A stretch of 64,000 bases of DNA. Source: Acidobacteriota bacterium. Its GTDB lineage: Bacteria; Acidobacteriota; Polarisedimenticolia; Gp22-AA2. The stretch spans positions 1-64,000 of the forward strand of contig QHXX01000022.1 in assembly GCA_003223135.1 (NCBI GenBank), given 5' to 3'. The position numbers were made by a program, and so were the translations under genes. Under the pieces are notes generated by a model, which was not told where the DNA came from, searched no databases, and saw nothing but the letters and a program-made list of their open reading frames with translations. The stretch's first letter is position 1; each line of letters opens with the position of its first letter. Below are positions 11,932 through 44,615 of this stretch, piece after piece.

Positions 11932-12876
11932 TCAGCGGTCGATGGCGGGAGCGAGCCGCCTCCAGCCGCTTCCCTCGTGGTCGTAGTGGAAGATGCCGGG
12001 ATGGAGGATCTCCGCAAGGATCTCGAGCGACTCGACCAGGCGCGGTCCGGGGCGGTTGAAGAACAGGTGCCCGTCGGCGAGGAAGACCCGCCCGCCGCGC
12101 ACCGCCCGGAGACGCCCCCAGCCCGGCAGCTTCCGGAGAGCCTCCGCTTCCCGGGCGGTGCGTTCCAGGTCGAAGCCGCAGGGCAGGACGACGATCGTGT
12201 CCGGATCGGCGGCCGCGAGGCTGTCCCACGTCATCCCGGGTGAATGCCGTCCTGCCTCGCCGAACAGGTTGCGGCCCCCGGCCAGCGCTACGAGCTCGGG
12301 CATCCAGTTGCCCGCCGCCATCAGAGGATCGATCCACTCGACGCAGGCGACCATGGGGCGGCTGTCGATCCGGGCCGCGCGGGCCGCGATCGCCTCGACC
12401 CGCCCTTCCAGGTCCCGTCTCAACGCCCGGCCGCGTTCCGCGACCCCCAGCGCCTCCGAGACCCGCTCGATGTCCTTCCATACGTCCAGAAGATGCGCCG
12501 GCTGAAGGGCCAAAAGCGCCGGGCGCGAGCCGATCCACTCCCCGAGCGCCGTCTCGACGTCGCGCAGGCTCACGGCGCACACGTCGCACAGCGTCTGGGT
12601 GATCACCAGGTCGGGCCGGAGCTGCCGCAGCCGCGCGGCGTCGACGCGGTAGACCGAAAGAGCCTGCTCGAGGATCGCCCGGACCGAGACGTCGATGTCG
12701 CGACTCGGCCGCCCGGCGTCAAGGCGCGGCTCGGAGCAGGCGGGAAGATCGCGCACCGATTCGGGGACATCGCACTCGTGCGAGCGGCCCACGAGGCGAT
12801 CCTCGCAGCCGAGGGCGCAGACTATCTCGGTGCTGCTGGCGATGAGCGACACGACGCGCGTGGCTTCCCTGGACAC
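11932..12876 (-). CDS. Cobalamin ABC transporter substrate-binding protein (BtuF-like)
   Basis: RVVSLIASSTEIVCALGCEDRLVGRSHECDVP, LVITQTLCDVCAVS; located at the end of a riboswitch-led locus. Confidence 0.85.
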   Translation of the reverse strand: MSREATRVVSLIASSTEIVCALGCEDRLVGRSHECDVPESVRDLPACSEPRLDAGRPSRDIDVSVRAILEQALSVYRVDAARLRQLRPDLVITQTLCDVCAVSLRDVETALGEWIGSRPALLALQPAHLLDVWKDIERVSEALGVAERGRALRRDLEGRVEAIAARAARIDSRPMVACVEWIDPLMAAGNWMPELVALAGGRNLFGEAGRHSPGMTWDSLAAADPDTIVVLPCGFDLERTAREAEALRKLPGWGRLRAVRGGRVFLADGHLFFNRPGPRLVESLEILAEILHPGIFHYDHEGSGWRRLAPAIDR

Positions 12877-12928: not shown

Positions 12929-13680
12929 TCAGCGCGAAGAACTGGAATTCGGGCGGCGAACGACGCTCCAGGGCGACGGGAGGGGGCCGACGTACAGGAG
13001 GTCGTAGTCCACGACGGCGTGGATCGAGGGGAAGCCTTCGAAATAGCCCGCGATCCCGGCGGCGTCGAGCAGGAAGGTCGGATGGATCCGCGACAGGTCG
13101 ACGTTCACGGTCGCGTCGACGATACGCTCGAACCTGAGCGCCTGCAGGTGGTGGCTCACACGGACGTTCAGTCGGCGCGCCGCGGAGTCGTGGTGGACCT
13201 GCACCAGGAGCGGCATGTCGAGCGGCAGGGCGGTGGCGGCCGATGCGAAGGCGAAATTGAAGAAGGCGTTGCCGGCCACGTTGCCGCCGAACACGGAGGG
13301 GGTCACGAACGGGCCGCCGAAGACGGTGACATTCGGGAAGTAATCGAACTCGACCAGGTCGAAGCTGTCGGACGGGAACGAAGTGCGGTTGAGCCCGGTG
13401 GTGGCGCGGTTCCACAGGCCGAAGGCGATCTGCGAGAAGCCGTTCGGGTCCGCGAAGAAGCCCTCGGAGCGGATGGTCAGGATGGCGCCGAAGTCGAAGT
13501 CGGCGTCGGTGGAGAAAGACTGTCCGATGGGGGTCGAGAGCCGCGCAGTCGGGAGGGTGGTGTCGTACACGACCCGTAGCGTCCCTTCGCGATCGGCGGG
13601 GAAGTGGGACGGCTCCTCGGGCACAAACGTGAAGCGGGCGGCGACGTCTCCTTCGCCGAAGAAGGCGCCGGCAGGGCGGC
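12929..13680 (-). CDS. Hypothetical, possibly exported protein; 5' end missing or out of frame
   Basis: Coding-like frame TLRVVYDTTLPTARLSTPIGQSFSTDADFDFGAILT...; upstream reading GAFFGEGDVAARFTFVPEEP is in frame but has no start or signal sequence. Confidence 0.55.
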
Positions 13681-15045
13681 GACCGGTGCGCCGTTCTCCG
13701 CGTTGAAAATCAGGACGCGGGGCTCGAAGAAATTGCTGTCCGCGACCAGGAGATACCCGTCGCCGTCGAGCTCGATGGACGAGACCAGACCGGCGCTGTC
13801 GAAGATCGTGTCCCGCACCTCGCCGGTCGTAGGGTCGAACGACTTGACGAAGTTGTGGAACGAGGCGTCGGAGACGAGACAGTAGCCGCGCGTCGCCGAG
13901 TGGATCACGACACCGCTGACGTTTCCTCCGAGGACGTCATCGTCCACCAGGAGCCCGCGGGCGGCGCGGGTGACCGGGTCGATCGTTTCGATGCCGCCGC
14001 TCAGGACCGGCGCCGGCCGGTTGAAGCCGGGGAAGAGGCCGGCCAGCCCGACGTAGATGAGACCGGTCGCGGGCGCGTAAGACAGCGACTCGAAGGGATT
14101 CTGGCCGGAGAGGTCGATGACCTGGATCACCTGCCGGAGCACCGGATCGATGACCACGACCCGTCCGTTCATTAATTCGCTGAAGGAGGCGTCCGCGTCC
14201 TGCAGCGTGACGTAGATCAGGCCGTCGTGCAGAAGCGCCTGATCGGGCCGGGGATAACGGTCGCGGTTGCGGGCGTACGGCGTGAGGTCGATGCGATCCA
14301 CGATGTCGCCCGTCGCGAGGTCCATGACCGCGACGTCGCTGAACCCGGCGCCGTAGCGCGTGATGAATGCGGTGCCCGCGTCGCCGGCGGCCCCGGGCGG
14401 CGGGACAACGAGATCGAGAGGGTTCGACAGGTTGCCGGTCGAGTACTCGAAGAGCGTCTCGAACGGACCTTCCGGATTGAGCCCCTGCACGTTGTCGAAC
14501 GTGAATCGGTTCACAATGAACGGCCTTCCGTCCTCGACCCGCGCGATCGCGTCGCTGCTGATGATCTCGACGTCGTCCTCCACGCTGATCCGCGTGTCGT
14601 AGCGCACCGTGATGACGGAGACCTTGCCGATCGACCCCTGCAGGTCGGAGCCCGCGACGAGATACCGTCGCCGTTTCACCGCCACGAACGAGCCGTGTCC
14701 AGGGAATCCGAAGAGCGCCGCGGGCCCGGCCACCCGCCGGGCGCCATCCAGAGCCGTCCCTTCGAGATCGAGCAGGAGGCCGGCGTTTCCGACGCGGATC
14801 GGTCCGAAGAATCCGGTCGCCAGAGCGCCGCTGCCGTACGAGCCGCGCACTGCGATCTCCGGCGGCGCCTCGAACGCCTGCGGGACGCCGCCGGCGCTGA
14901 CCGAGAGGACGTGCGCCCGCGCCTCGAACGCCGGGTCGCCGTCGTCGAGCGATGCCTCGTCGAAGATCATCTCGAGGTCGAGATCGATGCCGCGATAGGT
15001 GAGTCCGGAGACGACGATCTCGGTGTCCGGGTAGGTCACCGACAT
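13660..15045 (-). CDS. YncE-like beta-propeller protein (BtuG-like candidate), both ends disrupted
   Basis: Repeated propeller-like blades (GDIVDRIDLTPY, GRVVVIDPVLRQVIQVIDLSGQNPFESLSY, GLIYVGLAGLFPG, GEVRDTIFDSAGLVSSIELDGDGYLLVADSNF); no signal peptide in frame. Confidence 0.65.
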
Positions 15046-17014
15046 TGACCTCGAAGGTCGCATCGAGGCCCTTGCGCAGACGCAGGCGGTAGCCGGCATC
15101 GTGCAGGTAGCGGGCGGGGAGCGCCTCGCTCGGGGTATTCGAAGGGTCGATGAAATTGCGCCCGACGTAGGTGAAGTCGTAGAACAGTCGGCCAGGGCCG
15201 GCCGCAAGTGTCGCGGAAGCGGTCATCTCGTTTTGCGGTCGTCCCGGCAGAAGACGCCCGTCCGTGGGCCGGCCGCTGACGTCGCGCGGCGCCTGGTGGG
15301 TGACGTTCAGGCTGCCGTTGAAGCGCTTTCCGATCCCGAGGGCAAGCGTCAGCTCGGCGCCGCGGATGCGCGCCCTGTCGAAATTTTGCGCCAGGACGGT
15401 GCTCTGCGAATTCGGGATGAACTGGATGAGGTCCTCCGCCAGGGTCTCGAACAGGGTGAATTCAACGCGCGCCGAGCGCAGGGCGCCCGCGGGCCGGGGG
15501 AGGGAGGCGGCGAGGCCCAGATCGAGGCTCCGCCCTCGCTCCGGCATGAGCGCGGGGTTTCCCTGCACAGACCCCTGGTTCCCGAACAGCTCGACGAAGT
15601 CCGGCAGGCGAGCGAAGCGGCCGAAGTTCCCCTTGACGGTGAGCGCCTCGGACGCCTTGAGTCGAAAGCCGATCTTGCCGGTGAGATAGCTGTCTTCTTC
15701 GTCCGGCAACACGACGCCTCCCGCCGAGCCCGGACGGAAGGTGCTGGCGTAGGCCTCGTGCCGCAGCGAGGGGTTGATGACGAGCCGGTCAGAGGCGAAG
15801 GAGATCTGATCCTCGAGCGTCACGACCGTGCCGTGGCGCATGGCCCGGCCGATGTCCGCGGGCCCGCGGATGGCGCGATCCTCGAGATCGGCGGTCTCGC
15901 GGCGCCGTGCCAGCAGAAACGAGATCGCCTGGCGGCCCGGGGCGGCGACGACGAGGCCGAACTCGGCTCCCAGCGTGTCGATCAGATTGACGGTGTCGAC
16001 CAGGCGGCCGGTGACGCTGGTCGGCCCTGTCGGGTCGTCGAACTCCTCGCGGTACCGCGTGTAGTCGGCGGCTACGCGCGCCAGGAGCCGCCCGCCGAGA
16101 ATCCCCGGCATCTCGAATTCGGGTCGCAGCAGCCAGCGGGTCGTCGCAAACCGCGCGTCGGGAGACTTGCAGCAGTCGAGGCCCGGAACGCCCCGGTCGC
16201 TCGCGAGCAGATCGGCGGCGAGCGCGAAGCGGCCGCGACGACCGCTCTTGAGCGTCGCCTGCCCCGACAGGTGCCCGCGGCGAAAATCGTTGTTCTCCCG
16301 GCGCAACGTGGCGTCGTCCCTCGGATCGTGAGGTGTGCCGTTATTGTCGAAGTGAAGGTAGGCGCCGTCGCCGCGGGCGCCGTCGAACCCGACCCGGTAG
16401 TCGCCGCGATCTCGCCGGCCGGCGATCGACGCGATCGCCTCCGTCGATCCGTACGACCCGGCCGAGGCCGAGCCGGTCGCCACCGGGGATCGGGACGCCC
16501 GGCGGGTGTGGATCAGGACCGCCCCTCCGATCGAGGCGGCCGGCAGCCCGGCCGGCGTGAAGCCGCGGTACACCTCGATCGACTCGACCTGTGCAAGCGG
16601 CAGGTCGGCCAGGTTCACCGCCCCGCCCAGAGCGCGATTGAGCGGCACGCCGTCGAGATAGACGACGACCTGCTCGGCGCTCGAGCCGCGGATCGAGACG
16701 GTGGCGTACTCCCCTCCCAGCCCCCGCACCTGGACCCCGACCATGTCACGCAGGAGCTCGGGGACCGACGTCACCTTGTCGGCGAAGTCTTCGGCGCGGA
16801 TCACGGTCGCGAAGGCGGTGGTGTCCAGCCCCGCCGCTTCGTCGGAGCTGCCGCGGACCTCGATCGTCTCGATCGGACCCTGCGCCGCGACCGGGGACGG
16901 AGCGGGTGCGGGAGTGGACGCGGGGGGAGCGGCGTCCTCGGCGCGGGCCGCGGCCGCCACGACCAGCACCTGGCCCGCGAGAAGCAGGGCCGCCCGCTGC
17001 GACCATCGGCTCAC
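15046..17014 (-). CDS. TonB-dependent outer-membrane receptor, BtuB-like; C-terminus disrupted
   Basis: Signal peptide, plug domain (IETIEVRGS, VSIRGSSAEQVVVYLDGVPLNRALGG, IEVYRGFTPAGLPAASIGGAVLIHTR), barrel strands up to GLDATFEVN. Confidence 0.88.
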
Positions 17015-18279
17015 AGGCAGTCGCCCGTCGCGGGGTGGCGGATATCGTGTGCCGTGGAGAAACCGTACCCCAGGCCGCTCCCGGGCGGGTTCTGGCGCAC
17101 CAGGTAGAAGAACGCCTGCCCCGCCGAAGGGAGGGATGCGTCGGCCAGACCGCGCGTGGTCAGGTCGGTCGAGTCGTTCTCGATGCAGGTGACGACTCCG
17201 AGATCGACGAGCCCGCCCATGGCATGGAGCGCCGAGACGCCGCCACGGATGACGTCGTAGGTGATCCCCGAGCCGAGGAAATTCCAGCGCACCACGGTCG
17301 GCGACGCCTCGGCGACCTCGAGATCCAGGACCGGGACGAAGAACGGAGCGGCGGACGCCCTGGCGGGATCGCGGCAGGACGCGGCCTCGATGCCATCGGG
17401 CACGCCGTCGCCGTCGCTGTCAGGGTCGGCGGGATTGGTGAGATAGAAGAAACGCTCGGCGTCGTCCGACAATCCGTCGCCGTCACTGTCGATCTCGGCG
17501 GGACCGAGGAGCGGCCGCGAATGGATCGCCACGACCGCGTCGAGGTCGAACCCCTCCGACGACCCCGGAATGCCGATCGGCAGGTTCGGATCGATCAGGC
17601 GCACGTAGCGCGCCCGGGTCAGCCCGACGGTGGCCAGGTCGAAGGCGTCGCCGCCGTGCCCGGACACGCCCCCGGGTGCCGCCGGGTCGAAGACCAGCGG
17701 GTCGTCCGGCACCGTCCAGTTGCCGGTGAAATTGGGCGTGATCCCGAACAGCCCGATGAGACGCCCCAACAGCGCCTTGTCGGTGCACAGCGACGTCACC
17801 TGCGCCAGGGCGGAGGCGTCGAACGGGAACCTCATGAAGGTCACGCCGTCCTCGCTGACCTCGACGATTCCCGGCTCGGCGAACACCGAGTACGGGTCGG
17901 CGTCGCTCGCGGGCACGCTGGTACAGAAGAACGGGTTCTCGAAGACGATCAGGTCCGGACCCGGCCCGTCGACGATCTCGTTGTCGGTGAACTCCAGTGT
18001 GATCGTCCCGCCATGGCCCACGGACATGACGGCCAGGGAGCCGGTCGTCGGCGTGGCGCTGCCGGGAGGTCCCAGGACGATCCCCGGCTGCCAGGTGTTG
18101 AACGCCGGCGGCGAGCTGACCGATCCCGGGACGAACGAGACGATCCGGTCGGGGAAGCAGTCGCTCGTCGTCTGGGCGCGCGCGGGCGACCCGCGCAGGG
18201 CGATGAACAGACAGACCAGAATGGCGGCGAATGACCGCCCGACGCGACGCCAGGTGACGGCGGGAGCGAAGCGATCCAT
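17011..18279 (-). CDS. Secreted surface protein with thrombospondin type 3-like Ca-binding repeats
   Basis: Signal peptide from ATG at 18279; GGTITLEFTDNEIVDGPGPDLIVFENPFF; DSDGDGLSDDAERFF...DPDSDGDGVPDGIE. Confidence 0.75.
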   Translation of the reverse strand: MDRFAPAVTWRRVGRSFAAILVCLFIALRGSPARAQTTSDCFPDRIVSFVPGSVSSPPAFNTWQPGIVLGPPGSATPTTGSLAVMSVGHGGTITLEFTDNEIVDGPGPDLIVFENPFFCTSVPASDADPYSVFAEPGIVEVSEDGVTFMRFPFDASALAQVTSLCTDKALLGRLIGLFGITPNFTGNWTVPDDPLVFDPAAPGGVSGHGGDAFDLATVGLTRARYVRLIDPNLPIGIPGSSEGFDLDAVVAIHSRPLLGPAEIDSDGDGLSDDAERFFYLTNPADPDSDGDGVPDGIEAASCRDPARASAAPFFVPVLDLEVAEASPTVVRWNFLGSGITYDVIRGGVSALHAMGGLVDLGVVTCIENDSTDLTTRGLADASLPSAGQAFFYLVRQNPPGSGLGYGFSTAHDIRHPATGDCL

Positions 18280-18362: not shown

Positions 18363-18418
18363 CGTCATCGGTGAGTTGCGCCGAGATCCCTCTCCCGCGA
18401 GAGGTCCGTCACGACATC

Positions 18419-18600
18419 ATCGCGGGCAGGTTTCCTGGCTCGCGGCTGTCTACTCGCCGGCCCTTCCCAGGAACCTCAGGCTCCCAGTGGGATTCTCCGG
18501 CTTTCGGTACCGCTCACAGTTGCGGGGCAGCGGGGGTTTCTCACCCCCTTCCCTTTTCAACCGCTCCGCCGCGACGGCGGAGCGATCGCCCACGATGCGA
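18419..18600 (-). promoter_or_regulatory. Cobalamin riboswitch
   Basis: Minus strand contains GAAAAGGGAAG, CTGCCCCGCAACTGTGAGCGG, GAAAGCC...CCACTGGG, CTGGGAAGGGCCGGCGAGTAGACAGCCGCGAGCCAGGAAACCTGCCCGCG; upstream stem CGCTCCGCCG/CGGCGGAGCG. Outer boundaries approximate. Confidence 0.93.
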
Positions 18601-18650
18601 AATGTCAAGGAACCGAAGCGGCCCTTATATACGCCGCCCGGGAATCGATG

Positions 18651-22701: not shown

Positions 22702-23685
22702 GTGAGCGACGCCACCTCCGGTCCGCCTGCTCCCTCCGCGCCCAGGCGTTGCGACCTCCACCTCCATACCCGCTACTCGTCCTGGCGCCACGCGCGCGTC
22801 CTGCGAGCGCGCGATTCGTACTCCGAGCCGGTCGATGTGTTCGACCGGGCGAAGGCCGCCGGGATGGACTACGTGGCGATCACCGACCACGACTCCATCG
22901 AGGGGGCCCTGGGCCTCCTCGAGGCCCGGCCGGATCGGGCGTCCGAGATCATCGTGGGCGAGGAGGTGGAGACGCGCTTCCCCGACACCGGGCAGCCGCT
23001 GCACGTCAATGTCTATGGTCTCGATGAGTCAGCGCACCGCGAGGTGCAGATCCTGCGCGGAAACGTCCGCGAGCTCGTTTCTTATCTGCGCCGGCGCGGT
23101 CTCCTGTTCGTCCTTAATCATCCGTTCTGGTCCTACCGATTCCAGAAGCGCCCGCGCGCCTACGTCGAGGAGATCCTGGAGCTGTTCGACCACATCGAGG
23201 TGGCCAACAGCACGATGCCGTCCGGCCACGGCGAGGCGGCCGAGGCGATGTTGCGCTATGCCCTGGCCCTCGGCCTGCGCAAGACGGCCGTCGGCGGCAG
23301 CGACGCGCACGTTCTGGACCACGTCGGCTCGTCCTACACGTGCGCGCCGGGCGACACCGCCTCCGAATGGCTCGCGAGCGTGGCGCGTGGCGACTGCCGT
23401 CCGGTCGGAAGCGTCATCGGCTTCCCGCGCCTCCTGTCGCACGTCTACCGCGCCGTCGGCCGCTACTACGCCGGCATGGCGACACCCGAGGGCCGGGCCG
23501 GGATGGATGCCGTGAATTACCTCGCCGCCGCCGTCCTCCTGCCCGCCGCGACCGTTCTCGGCGTTCCCGCCGTCCTCGCCTGCCTCAACGAGATCAAGCA
23601 GCGCTCGGTCCTCGCCGTGACGCGCCGCAGTCTGGAGCGTCTCATCGGCGCCGGGGCGCAGGCTCCCCTCGAGGCGTTGGACTGA
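22702..23685 (+). CDS. PHP-domain metal-dependent phosphoesterase
   Basis: CDLHLHTRYSSW, YVAITDHDSIEG, GGSDAHVLDHVG. Confidence 0.9.
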   Translation: MSDATSGPPAPSAPRRCDLHLHTRYSSWRHARVLRARDSYSEPVDVFDRAKAAGMDYVAITDHDSIEGALGLLEARPDRASEIIVGEEVETRFPDTGQPLHVNVYGLDESAHREVQILRGNVRELVSYLRRRGLLFVLNHPFWSYRFQKRPRAYVEEILELFDHIEVANSTMPSGHGEAAEAMLRYALALGLRKTAVGGSDAHVLDHVGSSYTCAPGDTASEWLASVARGDCRPVGSVIGFPRLLSHVYRAVGRYYAGMATPEGRAGMDAVNYLAAAVLLPAATVLGVPAVLACLNEIKQRSVLAVTRRSLERLIGAGAQAPLEALD

Positions 23686-23707
23686 TTTCTCGCTCGCCGA
23701 GTGCCCA

Positions 23708-23795
23708 CCATCCCTCAAGAAAACCCCCGAGGCTTGTTCCAGGGAATCCCTCCATCTCTCAAGGACACGCCCGAGGTTTGTTTCAGGGAATCTCT
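23708..23795 (+). repeat. Two-copy 44-bp imperfect tandem repeat
   Basis: CCATCcCTCAAG...CCCGAGGcTTGTTcCAGGGAATCcCT repeated at 23708 and 23752. Confidence 0.85.
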
Positions 23796-23894
23796 GATTG
23801 TCTCGGCGCCCTCTCCCCGTGATATTGCGTGAATTGAGCGGACGAGCGGCCGCGGGGACACCCTCGGCGTCCCTGCAAGGACACGGAGGACGCA

Positions 23895-26800
23895 ATGCGG
23901 CGACGATCGGCGGGCGCGCGGGTCGGGATATGGGTCGTTCAGTTGATTCTGCCGATTTCCGTGCTGATCGCCCTTCCGGCGCCGGTGCGGAAGTCCCTCG
24001 CGCCCGCCGGCGCGGCGGTGTTGGAAAAGATCAATCGAGAAGGGCGGGCCACCTACTGGGTGGTCCTGAAGGAGCAGGCCGACCTGAGCGGCGCGTTCCG
24101 GATCGCGGACTGGGCGGCGCGCGGCCAATACGTCTACGACGCGCTCACATCCGTAGCGGCCCGCAGCCAGGTCGGGGTTGCCTCCCACCTCAAGACTCGG
24201 GCCCTCCCCCACAAGTCGTTCTGGATTGTCAACGCCATCCAGGTGACCAGCGGACCCGACGTCCTCGACCAGATCCGCAGGCGGAAGGAGGTGAGGGAGA
24301 TCCAGGCCGACACGGTCTTCACCATCCCGGATCCCGAGCCTGCGGCGGAGGTCACGCCGATCCAGGGGGTGGAGTGGAACATCGACCGCATCAACGCCCC
24401 CCAGGTCTGGTCGAGCTTCGGCGTCCGCGGCGAAGGAATCGTCGTCGCGAACATCGACACTGGCGTGCAGTTCGACCATCCGGCGCTCGTGGCGCAGTAT
24501 CGAGGTAATCGCGGCGCGGGGCGTTTCGACCACAGTTATAACTGGTTCGATCCCTCGAGTGCGTGCGCCAACCCGGCCGAGGCGCCGTGCGACAACAACG
24601 GGCACGGCACGCACACCATGGGCACCATGATCGGCGACGACGGTGGAGCCAACCAGATCGGCGTCGCCCCCCGTGCCCAATGGATTGCCGCCAAGGGCTG
24701 CGAAACCAACGATTGCTCGGCGGCGGCCCTGACCGCCTCCGCCCAGTGGATCCTCGCCCCCACCGACTTGAACGGAGGAAACCCCCGCCCGGATCTGCGA
24801 CCCCATGTCGTGAACAGCTCCTGGGGAGGTCAGGGCGGTAACATGTTCTATCAGGAGTTCGTGCGCGCCTGGGTGGCGGCGGGAATCTTCCCGGCTTTTT
24901 CGAACGGCAACGCCGGCCCGGACTGCGGCACCACGGGATCCCCCGGTGACTACCCGGAGAGCTACTCGTCCGGCGCCTTCGACGCCAACAACGTCATCGC
25001 GAGGTTCTCGGGCCGCGGTCCCTCCCGCTTCGAGGGAGTCGTGAAACCGAACATCGCCGCGCCGGGCGTGAGCGTCCGCAGCAGCACGCCGACCGACTCG
25101 TACGCCTCCAAGAGCGGCACCTCGATGGCCTCCCCCCACACCGCGGCCACGGTGGCCCTGATGTGGTCGGCCAGCCCCGCCCTGCTCGGTCAGATCGCCG
25201 AGACCCGGGCACTTCTGGATCAGTCGGCCAGCGATACGTCCGACCTCCAATGCGGCGGCGTCGCGGCCAGTAACAACGTCTGGGGCGAGGGGGCGCTGGA
25301 TGCCTTGGCCGCGGTCCAGCGGTCGCCAAGAGAGCCGGCCGGCGCGCTCCAGGGCACGTCGACCGACGCCGCTTCCGGCCTGTCCGTGTCGGGCACCGTC
25401 GTAGAGGCCGCCGGCCCGATCACACGAACCACGAGGACGGATGACACCGGCGCCTACCGCTTCCCCGTGCTGTCCGCCGGCTCCTACAACATCACCGCGA
25501 GAGCGTTTGGCTATTCGAGCCAGACGGCCTCCGTCTTCGTGGCCGATGGCGGGACCGCCGTTCGGGACTTTCGGCTTGCGTCGACGCCGCGGTACGGTCT
25601 GGACGGCCACGTGCGCGACGGCACGGGCACGCCGGTCGCCGGCGCCGCCGTGACCATCGTGGGCACGCCGATTCCGTCCGCCACCACCGATGCCCTCGGC
25701 TATTACGGCTTCGCCGGCGTGCCCCCGGGCACCTACGACGTGCGGGCGCGTCCGGGCGGCGGGTGCCTGGCTGCCGGGACAAGGCAGCTGATCCTGAACG
25801 GCGACGCGACCGGGTTCGACATCAGCCTGCCGGACCGATCGGACGCCTTCGGCTACACCTGCCGGCACGAGGCGCCTGCTTACATCGAGGCCGGCACCCC
25901 CCTCGGTGTGGACTTCGACACCACCCGGAAGGTGGTGAACCTGCCGTTTGCGTTCACCTACTATGGCCACACCTACCAGTCGGCGGCGGTCTGCGCTTAT
26001 GGCTCGCTGAGCTTCGTGGGCGGCTGCGACCTGCAGCTGTGCGAATATCCGGTCCCGCTCCCCAGCGTGGAATCGCCCGACGGCACCATCTTCCCGTTCT
26101 GGGAATACTTGACCGTTCCCAAGGACAGCGTCCGCAGCGAGGTCCTTGGCTCGGCGCCCGACCGCCGTTTCGTGGTCGAGTGGCGCAACGTCGGCGTGCG
26201 CGGCATCAGCGTCGCCATCGACTTCGAGGTCATCCTCCACGAGAACGGCACGATCGAAACGCAGTACCGCAACGTAGGGGACGACCCGCAGGAGAAGGGC
26301 AGCTGCGCCACGATCGGCATCGAGGACCCGTCTGGAACCACCGCGCTGATGTACTCGTTCCACCAGCCGTCGATCGCGATGCCGCAGCACGCCGTCGTCT
26401 ACCGCCCGCCGCCCTCACCCGCCGTGGAAGGCACGATCACCGATGCCAACGACGGCGCGCCGATCGCGGGAGCGACGGTGCGTGCAATGAAGGCCGGCAC
26501 CCCCGTGGTCACGCTGACGACCGACACCAACGGGGTCTACTTCACGCAGTTGCCGCGCGGCGAGTACACCGTCGAGGTCAGCAAGGCGAGATACGGCAGC
26601 CGATCGACGGTTGTCAGCCTCGTCGAGGACCGCACCTACACACAGGACTTCGCGCTCGAGACGCCCCTCGCCGAGGACAACCCGACCGCCCTCGATTTCG
26701 TGGTGCCCCGGGGCGATCGGCGGACCGGGACGCTGGCGCTGCGCAACGGCGGCGGGCTGGATTTGGCCTGGATGATGAGCGAGATCGGCACGTCGCAGCA

Positions 26801-28148
26801 GACCCCCGGGACCATTCTCAAGACCTGGACGCCCACGGTGTGGCCCAACGGCGTGGGGTACGACGGCGACGTCTGGCTGGCTGACATCACCGGGAACCGA
26901 AACACCGAATTCACCGTCGATGGCGCGCCGACCGGCGCCTCCTGGCCCGCCAACTTCGGGGGCGCGTGGCCCGGTGACATGGCCTACGACGCGGGGCGCG
27001 GCTGGATGTGCCAGGTCAACGGGACCACCGACGGCATCTACGGCATCTATTGCTGGGATCCCGCCAGCGGCAGCCTGACGGGTTCGATCACCGGGAGCTT
27101 CCCGTGGGCGCGCTCATGGCAGAAGGGTCTGGCCTACCGCCCGGACGACGACAGCTTCTACGTCGACAGCCCCATCGAGCAGATCCTGTACCACGTCGCC
27201 GGCTTCAGCCACGCCGCGCCCGGCGCGGTGATCGGGCAGTGCGTCACTCCGAATCTCGAATTCCCCGGGCTGGGCTGGAACCCGGCCTTTGGCACGGTCT
27301 GGGGAACGACCGTAGCCTCCACCATCAACGCTCTCGATCCCGAAACCTGCGCCCTGGAAGAGACGCTGACGACCCCCGGCTCCGGCTGCTGCGTCTACGG
27401 TCTGGAGACGGACGAAGCCGGCAATCTATGGATAGGCCACAGCCACACCAATCCCCGGGTCTCCCTCCTCGCCAGCGGCCTCCCGAGCTCCACAAACGTG
27501 CCCTGGCTGTCCGAGAGCGTCGCCTCCGGCACACTAGCCCCGGCCGCAACGCAGTCGATCGAGGTGACCGCCGACGCCGCCGGCCTCGCGCCGGGCACCT
27601 ACGCGAGCGAGCTGGTCATCAGAACCAACAGCGCGCGCCTGCGCAACCTCCGGGTGCCGGTCACGCTGGTCGTGACCTCCACTCAGCAGCCCTACCTCGG
27701 TCAGCCGTTCGCGGTACCGGGGCTCATCCAGGCGGAGGACTTCGATCGCGGCGGCGAGGGCGTGGCCTACCACGACAATGTCCCCGGGAACGCGGGGAGC
27801 CTCTACCGCCCCGATGAAGACGTGGACATCATCGCCCCGTACCCCGGTGGTCACGTGGTCAACAATTTCGAGACGGGGGAGTGGCTCGAGTACACAATCA
27901 GCGTCTCGCAGACCAGTACTTACCGGCTCGAGGCTCTGGCGAGCAGCGAGTTCGAGGGAAGCCGCTGGCACATGGAGATCGACGGCGTGGACGTGACGGG
28001 CCCCGTGACCGTCCCCAACACGGGGAGCTGGCGGAGCTTCCAGTGGATGGGGGTCGGAGGCGTGAGTCTCGCGACGGGCCGGCACGTCCTGCGCCTGCAC
28101 GCCGAGCAGGAGTACTTCAACCTCGACGCCCTTCGCATCGTCCAGTAA
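23895..28148 (+). CDS. Secreted S8 subtilisin-like peptidase with carboxypeptidase-regulatory-like domains and C-terminal CBM6-like domain
   Basis: Catalytic triad VANIDTGVQFDHP, NGHGTHTMGT, SGTSMASPHTAA; repeated SGTVVEA/GHVRDGTGTPVAGAAVT/GTITDANDGAPIAGATV; IQAEDF...GEWLEYTISV. Confidence 0.9.
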   Translation: MRRRSAGARVGIWVVQLILPISVLIALPAPVRKSLAPAGAAVLEKINREGRATYWVVLKEQADLSGAFRIADWAARGQYVYDALTSVAARSQVGVASHLKTRALPHKSFWIVNAIQVTSGPDVLDQIRRRKEVREIQADTVFTIPDPEPAAEVTPIQGVEWNIDRINAPQVWSSFGVRGEGIVVANIDTGVQFDHPALVAQYRGNRGAGRFDHSYNWFDPSSACANPAEAPCDNNGHGTHTMGTMIGDDGGANQIGVAPRAQWIAAKGCETNDCSAAALTASAQWILAPTDLNGGNPRPDLRPHVVNSSWGGQGGNMFYQEFVRAWVAAGIFPAFSNGNAGPDCGTTGSPGDYPESYSSGAFDANNVIARFSGRGPSRFEGVVKPNIAAPGVSVRSSTPTDSYASKSGTSMASPHTAATVALMWSASPALLGQIAETRALLDQSASDTSDLQCGGVAASNNVWGEGALDALAAVQRSPREPAGALQGTSTDAASGLSVSGTVVEAAGPITRTTRTDDTGAYRFPVLSAGSYNITARAFGYSSQTASVFVADGGTAVRDFRLASTPRYGLDGHVRDGTGTPVAGAAVTIVGTPIPSATTDALGYYGFAGVPPGTYDVRARPGGGCLAAGTRQLILNGDATGFDISLPDRSDAFGYTCRHEAPAYIEAGTPLGVDFDTTRKVVNLPFAFTYYGHTYQSAAVCAYGSLSFVGGCDLQLCEYPVPLPSVESPDGTIFPFWEYLTVPKDSVRSEVLGSAPDRRFVVEWRNVGVRGISVAIDFEVILHENGTIETQYRNVGDDPQEKGSCATIGIEDPSGTTALMYSFHQPSIAMPQHAVVYRPPPSPAVEGTITDANDGAPIAGATVRAMKAGTPVVTLTTDTNGVYFTQLPRGEYTVEVSKARYGSRSTVVSLVEDRTYTQDFALETPLAEDNPTALDFVVPRGDRRTGTLALRNGGGLDLAWMMSEIGTSQQTPGTILKTWTPTVWPNGVGYDGDVWLADITGNRNTEFTVDGAPTGASWPANFGGAWPGDMAYDAGRGWMCQVNGTTDGIYGIYCWDPASGSLTGSITGSFPWARSWQKGLAYRPDDDSFYVDSPIEQILYHVAGFSHAAPGAVIGQCVTPNLEFPGLGWNPAFGTVWGTTVASTINALDPETCALEETLTTPGSGCCVYGLETDEAGNLWIGHSHTNPRVSLLASGLPSSTNVPWLSESVASGTLAPAATQSIEVTADAAGLAPGTYASELVIRTNSARLRNLRVPVTLVVTSTQQPYLGQPFAVPGLIQAEDFDRGGEGVAYHDNVPGNAGSLYRPDEDVDIIAPYPGGHVVNNFETGEWLEYTISVSQTSTYRLEALASSEFEGSRWHMEIDGVDVTGPVTVPNTGSWRSFQWMGVGGVSLATGRHVLRLHAEQEYFNLDALRIVQ

Positions 28149-28418
28149 GCCCGGACTGTCGTCTCGCAGGCCGGCACCTACCGGCTCGAGGCTCTGACGA
28201 GCAGCGAGTTCGAGAGAAGCCGCTGGCACATGGAGATCGACGGCGTGGACGTGACGGGGCCGGTGATGGTCCCCAATACGGGGAGCTGGCGGACCTTTCA
28301 GTGGATGGGGGTCGGAGGCGTGAGTCTCGCGACGGGCCGGCACGTCCTGCGCCTGCACGCCGAGCAGGAGTACTTCAACCTCGACGCCCTTCGCATCGTC
28401 CAGTAAGCCCGGACTGTC
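27903..28418 (+). repeat. 258-bp direct tandem duplication of the subtilase 3' end
   Basis: Copy 1 27903-28160, copy 2 28161-28418; both include the stop codon; last part essentially identical. Confidence 0.9.
28161..28406 (+). pseudogene. Orphan CBM6-like C-terminal fragment (second repeat copy)
   Basis: Reads TYRLEALTSSEFERSRWHMEIDGVDVTGPVMVPNTGSWRTFQWMG...LDALRIVQ* but has no start codon or upstream domain. Confidence 0.75.
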
Positions 28419-28451
28419 GGCCGGCGCCGGTTCCGGGGCGGCGGCACTCTC

Positions 28452-29822
28452 CTAGTACAGGTACGGGTGCTTCCCGGCCTGCTGCATCTTCCGGAAGATC
28501 AGGTTCGCCGTCAGGTAGTGCATCTGGATCTTGAGGTTGCGCGGGGAGGGCGGGAAGAAGCGGCGCAGGATGGAGCGCATGCTGAAGAAGTCGCGGTAGG
28601 TGGCCCAGAACTTCTGCTCGGCCATTTCCGGCGTCATGCGTTTCGGCCGGATGACCGCGCTGCCGTAGTGGTAGCGGTCCCAGTCCCGCGTCAAGATCCG
28701 TCCTTCCTTCTCCATGCGGTCGTAAAACGGCGTCCCGGGGTACGGGATCGGAAGGTGGAACTTCGCCAGCGGCACCTTCTGGCGGATCAGGAACTCGAGG
28801 GTGCGATCGAAGTCCGCCGGATGGTCGTCGTCGAGGCCGATCATGATCAGGGCCACGACCTGGATGCCGCGCCGGCGCAGCAGGCGGATGAGGCGGGCGT
28901 ACTCCCGCGCCTGGGCCCAGGGCTTGTTGATGCCATCGAGGTTCGACTGCTTGATCGTCTCGAAGCCGATCGAGAGAAGAAAGCAGCCGCTCTTGGCGGC
29001 CAGGTCGAGGAGCTCTTCGTCCTCGGCGATCTGGATGGTGCACTGGCTGCACCAGCGCATCGACTTCGGGATCATGGAGCGGAACAGCTCCTTGGCGTAG
29101 CGCCGATCCGCCACCGGATTGTCGTCCATGAACAGGACGTTGCGTGATCCCTTGGCGCGGATGGCCTCGAGGTCGCGCAACACCTCGGCGATCGGGCGTT
29201 TGCGGTACGTCCCGTCGTGGAATTGCGTGATGCAGCAGTAATCGCAACGGAAAGGGCAGCCGCGCGTCACGTACAGCGGGAACTGGAAGTAATACTCGCG
29301 GTACACCCTCTCGCGCATCAGCTCGGGTCGCCAGAGCGGCAGATGATCGAGGTCGACCACCGGCAGCCCGCGGAGGTCGTGCAGCTTCTCCCCCTGGTAC
29401 ACGCGTTTCCGGAAGCCTCCGCGCTGGACATCGGCCAGAAGCTCCGGCCAGGCATACTCGGCCTCGCCCTTGACGATGGCGTCGCAGTGCTCCAGAGCCT
29501 GTTCCGGGTTCAAGGACACCCACTCCCCTCCCATCACCACCGGCAGACCGCGCGATCGGTAGGCGTCCGCGAGCCTGTAAGCGCGGCCGATCTGCAGCCC
29601 CATCGCCGTGATGCCGACAAGGTCGGCGTCGGTGTCGAGGGGCGGCTCGTCCATGAAGTCGTCCACCAGCTCGCAGGTGAAGTCGGGCGGTGTGAGGGCC
29701 TCGAGATGGACGAGGGTCAGTCCGGAGGTCCAGTACCGCCCGACGCGCGCGACGGACCCGTCCGGCCGGCGGTGCGAGGAGGAAATCAGCAGGATCTTGC
29801 GGCGGCCGCCGCGGGCAGGCAT
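28452..29822 (-). CDS. B12-binding domain radical SAM protein
   Basis: DADLVGITAMGLQIGRAYRLA (B12-binding-like) and YVTRGCPFRCDYCC (CX3CX2C). Confidence 0.9.
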   Translation of the reverse strand: MPARGGRRKILLISSSHRRPDGSVARVGRYWTSGLTLVHLEALTPPDFTCELVDDFMDEPPLDTDADLVGITAMGLQIGRAYRLADAYRSRGLPVVMGGEWVSLNPEQALEHCDAIVKGEAEYAWPELLADVQRGGFRKRVYQGEKLHDLRGLPVVDLDHLPLWRPELMRERVYREYYFQFPLYVTRGCPFRCDYCCITQFHDGTYRKRPIAEVLRDLEAIRAKGSRNVLFMDDNPVADRRYAKELFRSMIPKSMRWCSQCTIQIAEDEELLDLAAKSGCFLLSIGFETIKQSNLDGINKPWAQAREYARLIRLLRRRGIQVVALIMIGLDDDHPADFDRTLEFLIRQKVPLAKFHLPIPYPGTPFYDRMEKEGRILTRDWDRYHYGSAVIRPKRMTPEMAEQKFWATYRDFFSMRSILRRFFPPSPRNLKIQMHYLTANLIFRKMQQAGKHPYLY

Positions 29823-33110: not shown

Positions 33111-34143
33111 CCTTACGCGTGGTGATCACGGGTGGCGGCGCCGTCGGTCCCTTCGGCGCCGGGGTCGGGGCCCTGGTCGAGGCGGTCGCGACCGGCCGGA
33201 CGGCGATCGAACGATCCGGGCGGGGGTGCGCCGCGCGTCTGCGCGACGGCGTGGACGCGGGTCCTATCCGCGCCAATGTCTGGCGTCGGCTGGATCGCTG
33301 CTCCCGCATGGCCGTGGCCGCCGCGCGCGAGGCGCTCGAGGACGCCCGGCTCCGCGCCCCGGCCGGAGTCCCTGTGGCGAGGGATCAGGCGGCGCCCGCG
33401 CTCGTTTTCGGCACGATGTCATCAGGGGTGGAGACGCTGCGCGCCTTCCTTGCCACGACGTTCGCGGAAGGGCCCGAGGGCGCCTCGCCGATGCTCTTTC
33501 CTTTCACCGTGCCGAACTCGCCCGCGAGCCAGTGCTCGATCCTTCTCGGTCTGCGCGGCCCGAACCTGACGATCAGCGAGATGGAGGCGTCCGGACTGGC
33601 GGCGATCGCGACCGCCGCCGGTCTGGTGCGCGCCGGCGTCTGTGACGTCGCTCTGGCCGGCGGCGCCGACGAATGGGTCGGGGAGTACGACCGGGCCTGG
33701 GCACGGCTGCGCCTGACGCACCGGGGGGATCCCGCCGCCTTTCCCGGCCCCTTTGGCAGGGGCCGCCGTGGGTTCGTTCCGGGCGAGGGGGCGTACTTCG
33801 TGGTCGTCGAGTCGCTCGAAGGGGCGGCCCGCCGCGGTGCCCCGGCGTGGGCCGAGGTGGCGGGCGAGGCCATGACGCACGCCCCGGGTCCGGCGCACGG
33901 CTGGCCCGCGGAGCCCGGGGCCATGGCCGACGCGATTGGCCTGGCGCTGTCCCAGTGGCGGCGGGATCCATCCGCGACGGCTTCGTCCCGCCCGTGGCCG
34001 GTCTCCTCGATCCCGACCCGGACCTCGATCTCAACCTCGTCCTCGGAGAGGCCCGCCGCGGTCCCGTGCGTTCGGTCCTGATCGACGCCCTCGGGACCGG
34101 CGGATCCTGCGCGGCGGTCGTCCTCAGCCGCGCGGATTCCTAG
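33108..34143 (+). CDS. Beta-ketoacyl synthase lacking catalytic Cys (KS-beta/chain-length-factor-like), frame disrupted near 33950
   Basis: GLRGPNLTISEMEASGLAAIATA (Cys position is Glu); C-terminal RDGFVPPVAGLLDPDPDLDLNLVLGEARRGPVRSVLIDALGTGGSCAAVVL is in another frame. Confidence 0.75.
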
Positions 34144-42933: not shown

Positions 42934-44615
42934 ATGAAGCTTCGTGCCCTGTTCCGGACGAAGAGCGTCGATCGGATCACGCGCGAATCCGAGACGGTCG
43001 TCGAGCACACCCTGAAGCGCACCCTCACATCGTTCGACCTGACGATGCTCGGCATCGGCGCCATCATCGGCACCGGGATTTTCGCCGCGATCGGCACGGC
43101 GACCGCCGGCAACGCCGACCGGCCCGGGGCCGGGCCCGCGATCATCCTGTCGTTCGCCTTGACGGCCGTGGCCTGCATCTTCTCGGCCCTCTGCTACGCG
43201 GAGTTCGCGGCGATGATCCCGATCTCCGGCAGCGCGTACACCTACGCCTACGCGACGCTCGGCGAGATGGTGGCCTGGATCATCGGCTGGGACCTGATCA
43301 TCGAGTACGCCGTCGGCAATATCGCCGTCGCCATCTCCTGGGCGGCGCACTTCAACGACGTGCTCGAGCACGCTTTCGGCCTTCGCCTGCCGGGCTGGCT
43401 CACCATGGACTACGAGACGGCCACCCGGACCCCCGGGGTCATCGACTCCGCGCCTCACCTGTTGGGCTTTCCCATCGTCATGAACCTCGCGGCCGTGGCC
43501 ATCGTCGCGCTGGTGACCTGGGTACTCGTCATCGGAGTGGGGTGCAGGCGGGTGCGGCGCTGATTTTCTTCTCGTACATCGGCTTCGACGCGGTGTCCAC
43601 GGCCGCGGAGGAGACCCGCAATCCGAAGCGCGACATCCCGATCGGAATCATCGGATCGCTGCTCATCTGCACGGTGATCTATGTCGCGGTCGCGGCCGTG
43701 CTGATCGGCATCATGCCCTGGACCGAGCTGGGCGTCGCCGATCCGCTGCCGAAGGCACTGGCGTTCATCCATCTCGATCGGGCGGCCGGTATCGTGTCGT
43801 TCGGCGCGGTCGTAGCGTTCACCGCGGTTCTCCTGGTCTTCCAGCTCGGGCAACCGCGCATCTTCTTCTCCATGTCGCGGGACGGCCTCTTGCCGAAAAT
43901 CTTCGCCGCCGTCCACCCGCAGTACCGGACGCCGCACGTCACCACCATCTGGACCGGCGTCTTCGTCGCCTTCTTCGCCCTGTTCTCGCCCCTCGACAAG
44001 ATCGTGGAGCTGACGAACATCGGCACTCTGTTCGCCTTCGTGCTGGTCTGCATGGGGGTGATGATCCTGCGGCACAGGGATCCGCACCGCCCCCGCCCCT
44101 TCAAGACTCCCTGGATCCCGCTCCTGCCGATCTGGCTGGTGATCCTGTGGTACCTGCCGCGCGAGATCCTGCACGAGGATTGGGGAAAGCGCTTCGAGCA
44201 CACGGTGGTCCTGCTCCTGTCGGCGGCGGGAGTGCTATTTTCGATCATCGGTATCTATGCCTGGCTCAAGCGGCGTAGAGTCCCCGAGATCGTGAAGACG
44301 GAGTTCGCCCTGGCCGGCATCGGCTCGTGCGTCTGGCTGATGGCCGGACTGCCGGCGCTTACCTGGTGGCGGTTTGCGGGGTGGCTCGCGATCGGCCTGA
44401 CGATCTACGCGTTGTATGGCTCCCGCCACAGCCGGATGGCCGACCGCGTGGTGCAGCTGCCCGCCCATCTCAATGCGGTGACGCCCGGCGCCGTCGTGAT
44501 GGCCGGGGTCGTGTGGTGGGCCGCGCCCCACCCCTACAGTCTGATCGTGCCGATCCTGATCCTACTCGGGCTCTCGTTCTATGCCTTCTACGCCACACAG
44601 CGCCGGAACGCCTGA
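42934..44615 (+). CDS. APC/CAT-family amino acid permease, frame disrupted near 43545
   Basis: LTSFDLTMLGIGAIIGTGIFAAIGTAT in frame 1; QAGAALIFFSYIGFDAVSTAAEETRNPKRDIPIGIIGSLLICT in another frame. Confidence 0.85.

Follow-up and report, generated by a model that had tools for sequence, protein, structure and literature searches.

The window, the whole 64,000-nucleotide stretch of DNA that we analysed, carries on its minus strand a cobalamin riboswitch followed, in order, by genes for P1, a BtuB-type receptor, a propeller protein, P4 and a BtuF-like protein. The features are as follows.

18408..18608, minus strand: cobalamin riboswitch RF00174 (cmscan 120.3 bits, E 1.3e-29)
17011..18279, minus strand: P1, secreted, with a LIC_13355-like domain, two TSP3-type Ca repeats and a C-terminal domain
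15046..17014, minus strand: BtuB-type TonB-dependent receptor (Plug and barrel domains; C-terminal ~30 residues missing at the join)
15041..15045, no strand: join 1 (~220-270 bp of sister genomes absent)
14671..15042, minus strand: propeller lipoprotein, N-terminal beta-rich domain (alignment; strands in the predicted model)
13666..14670, minus strand: propeller lipoprotein, C-terminal domain, read as seven-bladed (~52-aa repeats; AF2 model; Foldseek matches)
13664..13667, no strand: join 2 (~190-200 bp of sister genomes absent)
12929..13663, minus strand: P4, secreted (N-terminus missing at join 2)
11932..12876, minus strand: BtuF-like corrinoid-binding-type protein, Peripla_BP_2 (PF01497, E 1.5e-17)

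Gene order and missing sequence in the window

The riboswitch score compares with a gathering threshold of 31.5 bits, and the match covers model positions 1-189, the full-length aptamer. The initial annotation had placed a BtuG-like propeller candidate at 13660-15045, downstream of a TonB receptor and under a B12 riboswitch, and each of these placements holds: the ORF runs from 13666 to 15042 on the minus strand with no stop codons, the BtuB-type receptor directly precedes it, and the riboswitch over the operon is the only RF00174 match in the whole genome. P1 starts at the ATG at 18279, and its ORF opens at GTG 18333. In sister genomes, from the same family, the stop codon of btuB and the start codon of the propeller gene overlap (GTGGGAGTTCTGA), which implies translational coupling. 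We rejected a btuB-propeller fusion, for which a 1025-aa ORF (13937-17014) was the candidate; this frame continues out of frame past ~15040, and two separate genes are present in the sisters. The BtuF-like protein has no obvious signal peptide, and its adjacency to the operon is conserved only partly: in G001 the gene again adjoins the operon, whereas in G003 and G004 none turned up nearby.

Two further features lie in the surrounding DNA. A B12-binding domain (PF02310) is encoded at 29439-29636, in a 719-aa open frame that belongs to the same syntenic block and lies some 11 kb away from the operon. A subtilisin-like protease gene (1417 aa, 23676-28451) falls within a 4.8-kb stretch that the sister contig lacks, having 17 bp in its place; this marks a lineage-specific insertion or loss.

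The sequence around the propeller gene is incomplete at two points. Homology in the window is unbroken from BtuB residue ~660 into the mature propeller protein, and from the last propeller blade into mature P4, whereas sister genomes have ~220-270 bp (join 1) and ~190-200 bp (join 2) more between the matching points. Join 1 removes the end of btuB together with the propeller start codon, signal peptide and lipobox, and join 2 removes the last residues of the propeller and the start and signal peptide of P4; the window sequence contains no Ns at either. Similarly abrupt losses occur at 33940-33970 (near 33950) and at 43538, where 162 and 130 bp are present in the syntenic sister contig. One of these two has a 22-base overlap, and the contig seems to have had gaps closed without Ns.

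That two joins truncate three genes could also be due to decay of the locus in this organism, with real deletions having destroyed btuB, the propeller gene and P4. We find this quite unlikely, given that the remaining frames are free of stops and under purifying selection and that comparable losses of 130-160 bp at two other places in the contig point to the assembly. Compared with same-genus genomes, all four genes show purifying selection (pN/pS 0.25-0.43), including the propeller gene at ~0.33-0.35 against same-genus species. On these grounds, namely the stop-free frames under selection and the losses elsewhere in the contig, we read the truncations of btuB, the propeller gene and P4 as assembly artefacts rather than biology.

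The propeller protein, P1 and P4

The initial annotation had noted a missing N-terminus that prevented a lipoprotein check. The N-terminus is indeed absent from the window, but this is not a property of the protein, since sister genomes have a signal peptide there. By inspection, a lipobox cysteine is present in all 21 relatives read (for example LAGC, LLAC or LAAC), and most of the other families have a conserved G-[SG]-[DE]-[YF]-x-P tether after it. The mature proteins have ~490-530 residues and a pI of 4.2-4.9. In the alignment, conservation is low over the N-terminal 120 residues, a beta-rich stretch, and the C-terminal 350 hold most of the invariant positions. Tryptophan is mostly absent from the protein in the window's family.

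YncE-like propeller repeats had been proposed for this ORF. The repeats are borne out by self profile comparison, which gave off-diagonal matches displaced by about 52, 104 and 161 residues (P ~6e-6), and seven blades can be laid out by eye on ~52-residue repeats. The fold itself comes from these repeats and from a model of low confidence: AF2 on the propeller domain alone returned a mean pLDDT of 48.5 and a pTM of 0.55, with only the last third confident, and a full-length prediction from three sequences (pLDDT 40) was useless. The Foldseek neighbours of the low-confidence model are beta-propellers. YncE ranks near the top by E-value; by query-normalised TM score, the best of the listed matches (0.49) is 8bmx_D, the BtuG2 chain of the BtuB2-BtuG2 complex. 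The C-terminal domain may be described as a predicted seven-bladed propeller, its blade count coming mainly from our reading of the repeats. No Pfam family applies to the protein, one member giving a marginal match to DUF5074 (E 0.06), and hmmsearch with two profiles against all PDB chains did not match BtuG up to E 10.

P1 and P4 are secreted proteins to which no Pfam family is dedicated; their signal peptides are of the ordinary kind and lack a lipobox. P4 has no Pfam or PDB relative; neither protein matches DUF4465 (BtuJ) or any solved B12-binding protein. The first domain of P1 matches the LIC_13355 lipoprotein family (NF033170) weakly in all 14 members, with a best E of 1e-13; member 1 scores 38.8 bits, below the curated cut-off of 120. 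Leptospira LIC_13355 has been studied for laminin and plasminogen binding in a paper that leaves B12 unmentioned (PMC11891782), and we found no tie to B12 in the papers on LIC_13355.

P4 was detected as a single copy in each of 20 genomes, which come from the window's family or from families with the operon, and full-length P1 is found in much the same set. The C-terminal domain of P1 (~100 residues, ~17014-17330 in the window) is common in large exported proteins of the class: it recurs class-wide in many large open frames, several per genome, and might act as an anchoring or sorting module specific to exported proteins of this class.

Linkage to B12 genes across Acidobacteriota

A family profile search of 396 Acidobacteriota genomes found the propeller protein in 22, one copy each, all within the window's class and spread over several families; seven of them, besides the window's own genome, belong to the window's family. 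The closest relatives with a name are metagenome bins of Acidobacteria, including one labelled gp22 AA3. The lineage is thus Acidobacteriota, in line with the suggestion that this operon lies outside Bacteroidetes. The propeller gene sits directly downstream of btuB in 22 of the 22 loci, and a cobalamin riboswitch opens the operon in all 17 with an intact upstream region, that is, those whose contig extends far enough upstream; the others are cut off. The initial annotation had named homologs never linked to B12 genes as grounds against its proposal; these counts show the opposite.

Within the window's family, seven of the eight members have one riboswitch per genome, upstream of the operon wherever the contig reaches, and P4 follows the propeller gene. 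In 14 genomes of other families the propeller gene again comes after BtuB, with a riboswitch at each of the 11 loci that reach far enough; these families mostly have the arrangement riboswitch, P4, P1, btuB, propeller. Across loci, P1 and P4 usually lie between the riboswitch and BtuB. Two riboswitch loci, L053 (a single long contig) and L056, have only the riboswitch, btuB and the propeller gene, and the retention of these three alone marks them as the core of the operon.

Beyond these genomes, we found no relative of the propeller protein in viral contigs and plasmids, where there is also no Bacteroidetes btuB-btuG record to serve as a yardstick, and no relative of P1 in plasmids. Our literature search returned no description of the operon in Acidobacteria.

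The hosts are soil and groundwater Acidobacteriota. CbiC, a marker of cobalamin synthesis, is absent from all eight genomes of the window's family, B12-binding domains are present in all eight, and a BtuC-like permease and an ABC ATPase are found together elsewhere in the genome. Together these findings indicate that the organisms of this family are probably B12 salvagers.

Comparison with BtuG and the probable role of the operon

In Bacteroides, BtuG2 caps BtuB and binds B12 in a central pocket on its negatively charged face, using Trp194 and Trp272 (2023 BtuBG structures, PMC10404256). When 313 human gut genomes were surveyed in 2018, no homologues of BtuG turned up outside Bacteroidetes (Wexler 2018, PMC6143338). 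Similar to the Acidobacteriota protein, Bacteroides BtuG (BtuG2, PDB 3DSM, 8BMX) is an acidic lipoprotein encoded next to btuB in a cobalamin-riboswitch operon. Its beta-propeller corresponds to the fold predicted here, which we read as seven-bladed, and both kinds of operon encode further exported accessory proteins. However, the Acidobacteriota protein comes from another phylum and has no detectable profile similarity to BtuG. It also carries an extra N-terminal beta domain of ~120 residues, whereas BtuG2 as described is a propeller only, and the general lack of tryptophan in the window's family differs from the Trp194/Trp272 pocket. We therefore do not call it a BtuG, as the profiles link it to no BtuG and it carries an additional domain; it is BtuG-like in architecture, sharing with BtuG2 its position, anchor, acidity and, probably, its fold. 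With YncE-type propellers (E. coli YncE, PDB 3VGZ) it shares the modelled fold and the top Foldseek neighbourhood, but in contrast to YncE it is lipid-anchored, has an N-terminal domain and is strictly linked to btuB and a cobalamin riboswitch.

The accessories BtuH, BtuJ (DUF4465) and BtuK of B. thetaiotaomicron are likewise exported from riboswitch-controlled btuB operons (PMC8941943, PMC12751083, PMC13398666). P1 and P4 may play a comparable role, but they belong to other families and are without lipoboxes. They are probably exported helpers of the same regulon, which would serve in auxiliary capture or docking.

The explanation that we favour, and consider likely, is a riboswitch-controlled outer-membrane operon for B12 salvage with a BtuG-like lipoprotein lid on BtuB. 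The proposal of a propeller comparable to BtuG in a B12-regulated operon outside Bacteroidetes is in this respect supported by the genomic linkage to BtuB and the riboswitch. Judging from the riboswitch class, low cellular cobalamin would permit expression of the operon. BtuB would then move the corrinoid across the outer membrane, with the lipoprotein, a small N-terminal beta domain plus a predicted seven-bladed propeller, probably sitting on it as a lid. By analogy with BtuG in Bacteroides, the central pocket of the propeller would capture the corrinoid and pass it to BtuB; P4 and P1 would probably assist as exported helpers, and BtuC- and BtuD-like proteins encoded elsewhere would import the vitamin. 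The sequences themselves show how the operon is built, its riboswitch, the linkage to BtuB, the lipobox, the repeat pattern, the conservation and the lack of a marker for de novo synthesis. For the propeller protein, we infer the fold, B12 binding, surface exposure and the lid mechanism, and likewise the role of P1 and P4.

Several observations count against this explanation. The mean pLDDT lends the propeller fold weak support, tryptophan is mostly absent, there is no sequence link to BtuG, and the window's own copy of the gene is truncated. The receptor is also divergent: the best model for an intact sister receptor is the siderophore receptor MxcH (E 1e-38, 133 bits), followed by TIGR01779 (TonB-B12) at E 1.6e-31 and 109.5 bits, far below its cut-off of 599.7.

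It is tempting to speculate that the Acidobacteriota machinery for surface capture of B12 evolved independently of Bacteroidetes, that a propeller lipoprotein with no recent ancestry in common with BtuG came to the role of BtuB lid by convergence, and that P4 and P1 are new families for corrinoid binding or docking. We regard this fuller scenario as possible but doubtful.

Alternatively, the propeller could be a YncE-like outer-membrane lipoprotein that faces the periplasm and receives or senses the corrinoid behind BtuB. A lipobox alone does not tell the leaflet, and YncE ranks among the best Foldseek matches. Yet its constant place directly after btuB, with overlapping frames, parallels btuB-btuG, and the BtuF-like protein and the BtuC/BtuD-like genes would already serve the periplasmic side, which makes a periplasmic placement rather unlikely. 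That the operon handles some other ligand (PQQ, a lanthanophore or a siderophore), with the riboswitch just coupling it to B12 status, would suit the divergent, MxcH-like receptor and the occurrence of YncE-type propellers alongside TonB receptors in acidobacterial xoxF3 clusters (PMC10875860), but seems very unlikely in view of the riboswitch in every intact locus across several families, the rank of TIGR01779 far ahead of PqqU (E 1e-7), and the lack of a cobalamin synthesis marker where B12-binding proteins abound.

Under the explanation of a lidded BtuB, a surface-capture layout that has so far been reported from no phylum but Bacteroidetes probably also exists in an unrelated one. P4 and P1 become candidates for new corrinoid-binding families, and the P1 match might offer a functional lead for the orphan LIC_13355 family. 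BtuG has been reported as exclusive to Bacteroidetes and is regarded as adaptive in the competitive gut environment. If our explanation is true, lidded TonB transporters for B12 would be a more general solution, which would go some way towards explaining how B12 consumers in soil compete for a vitamin that is scarce there.
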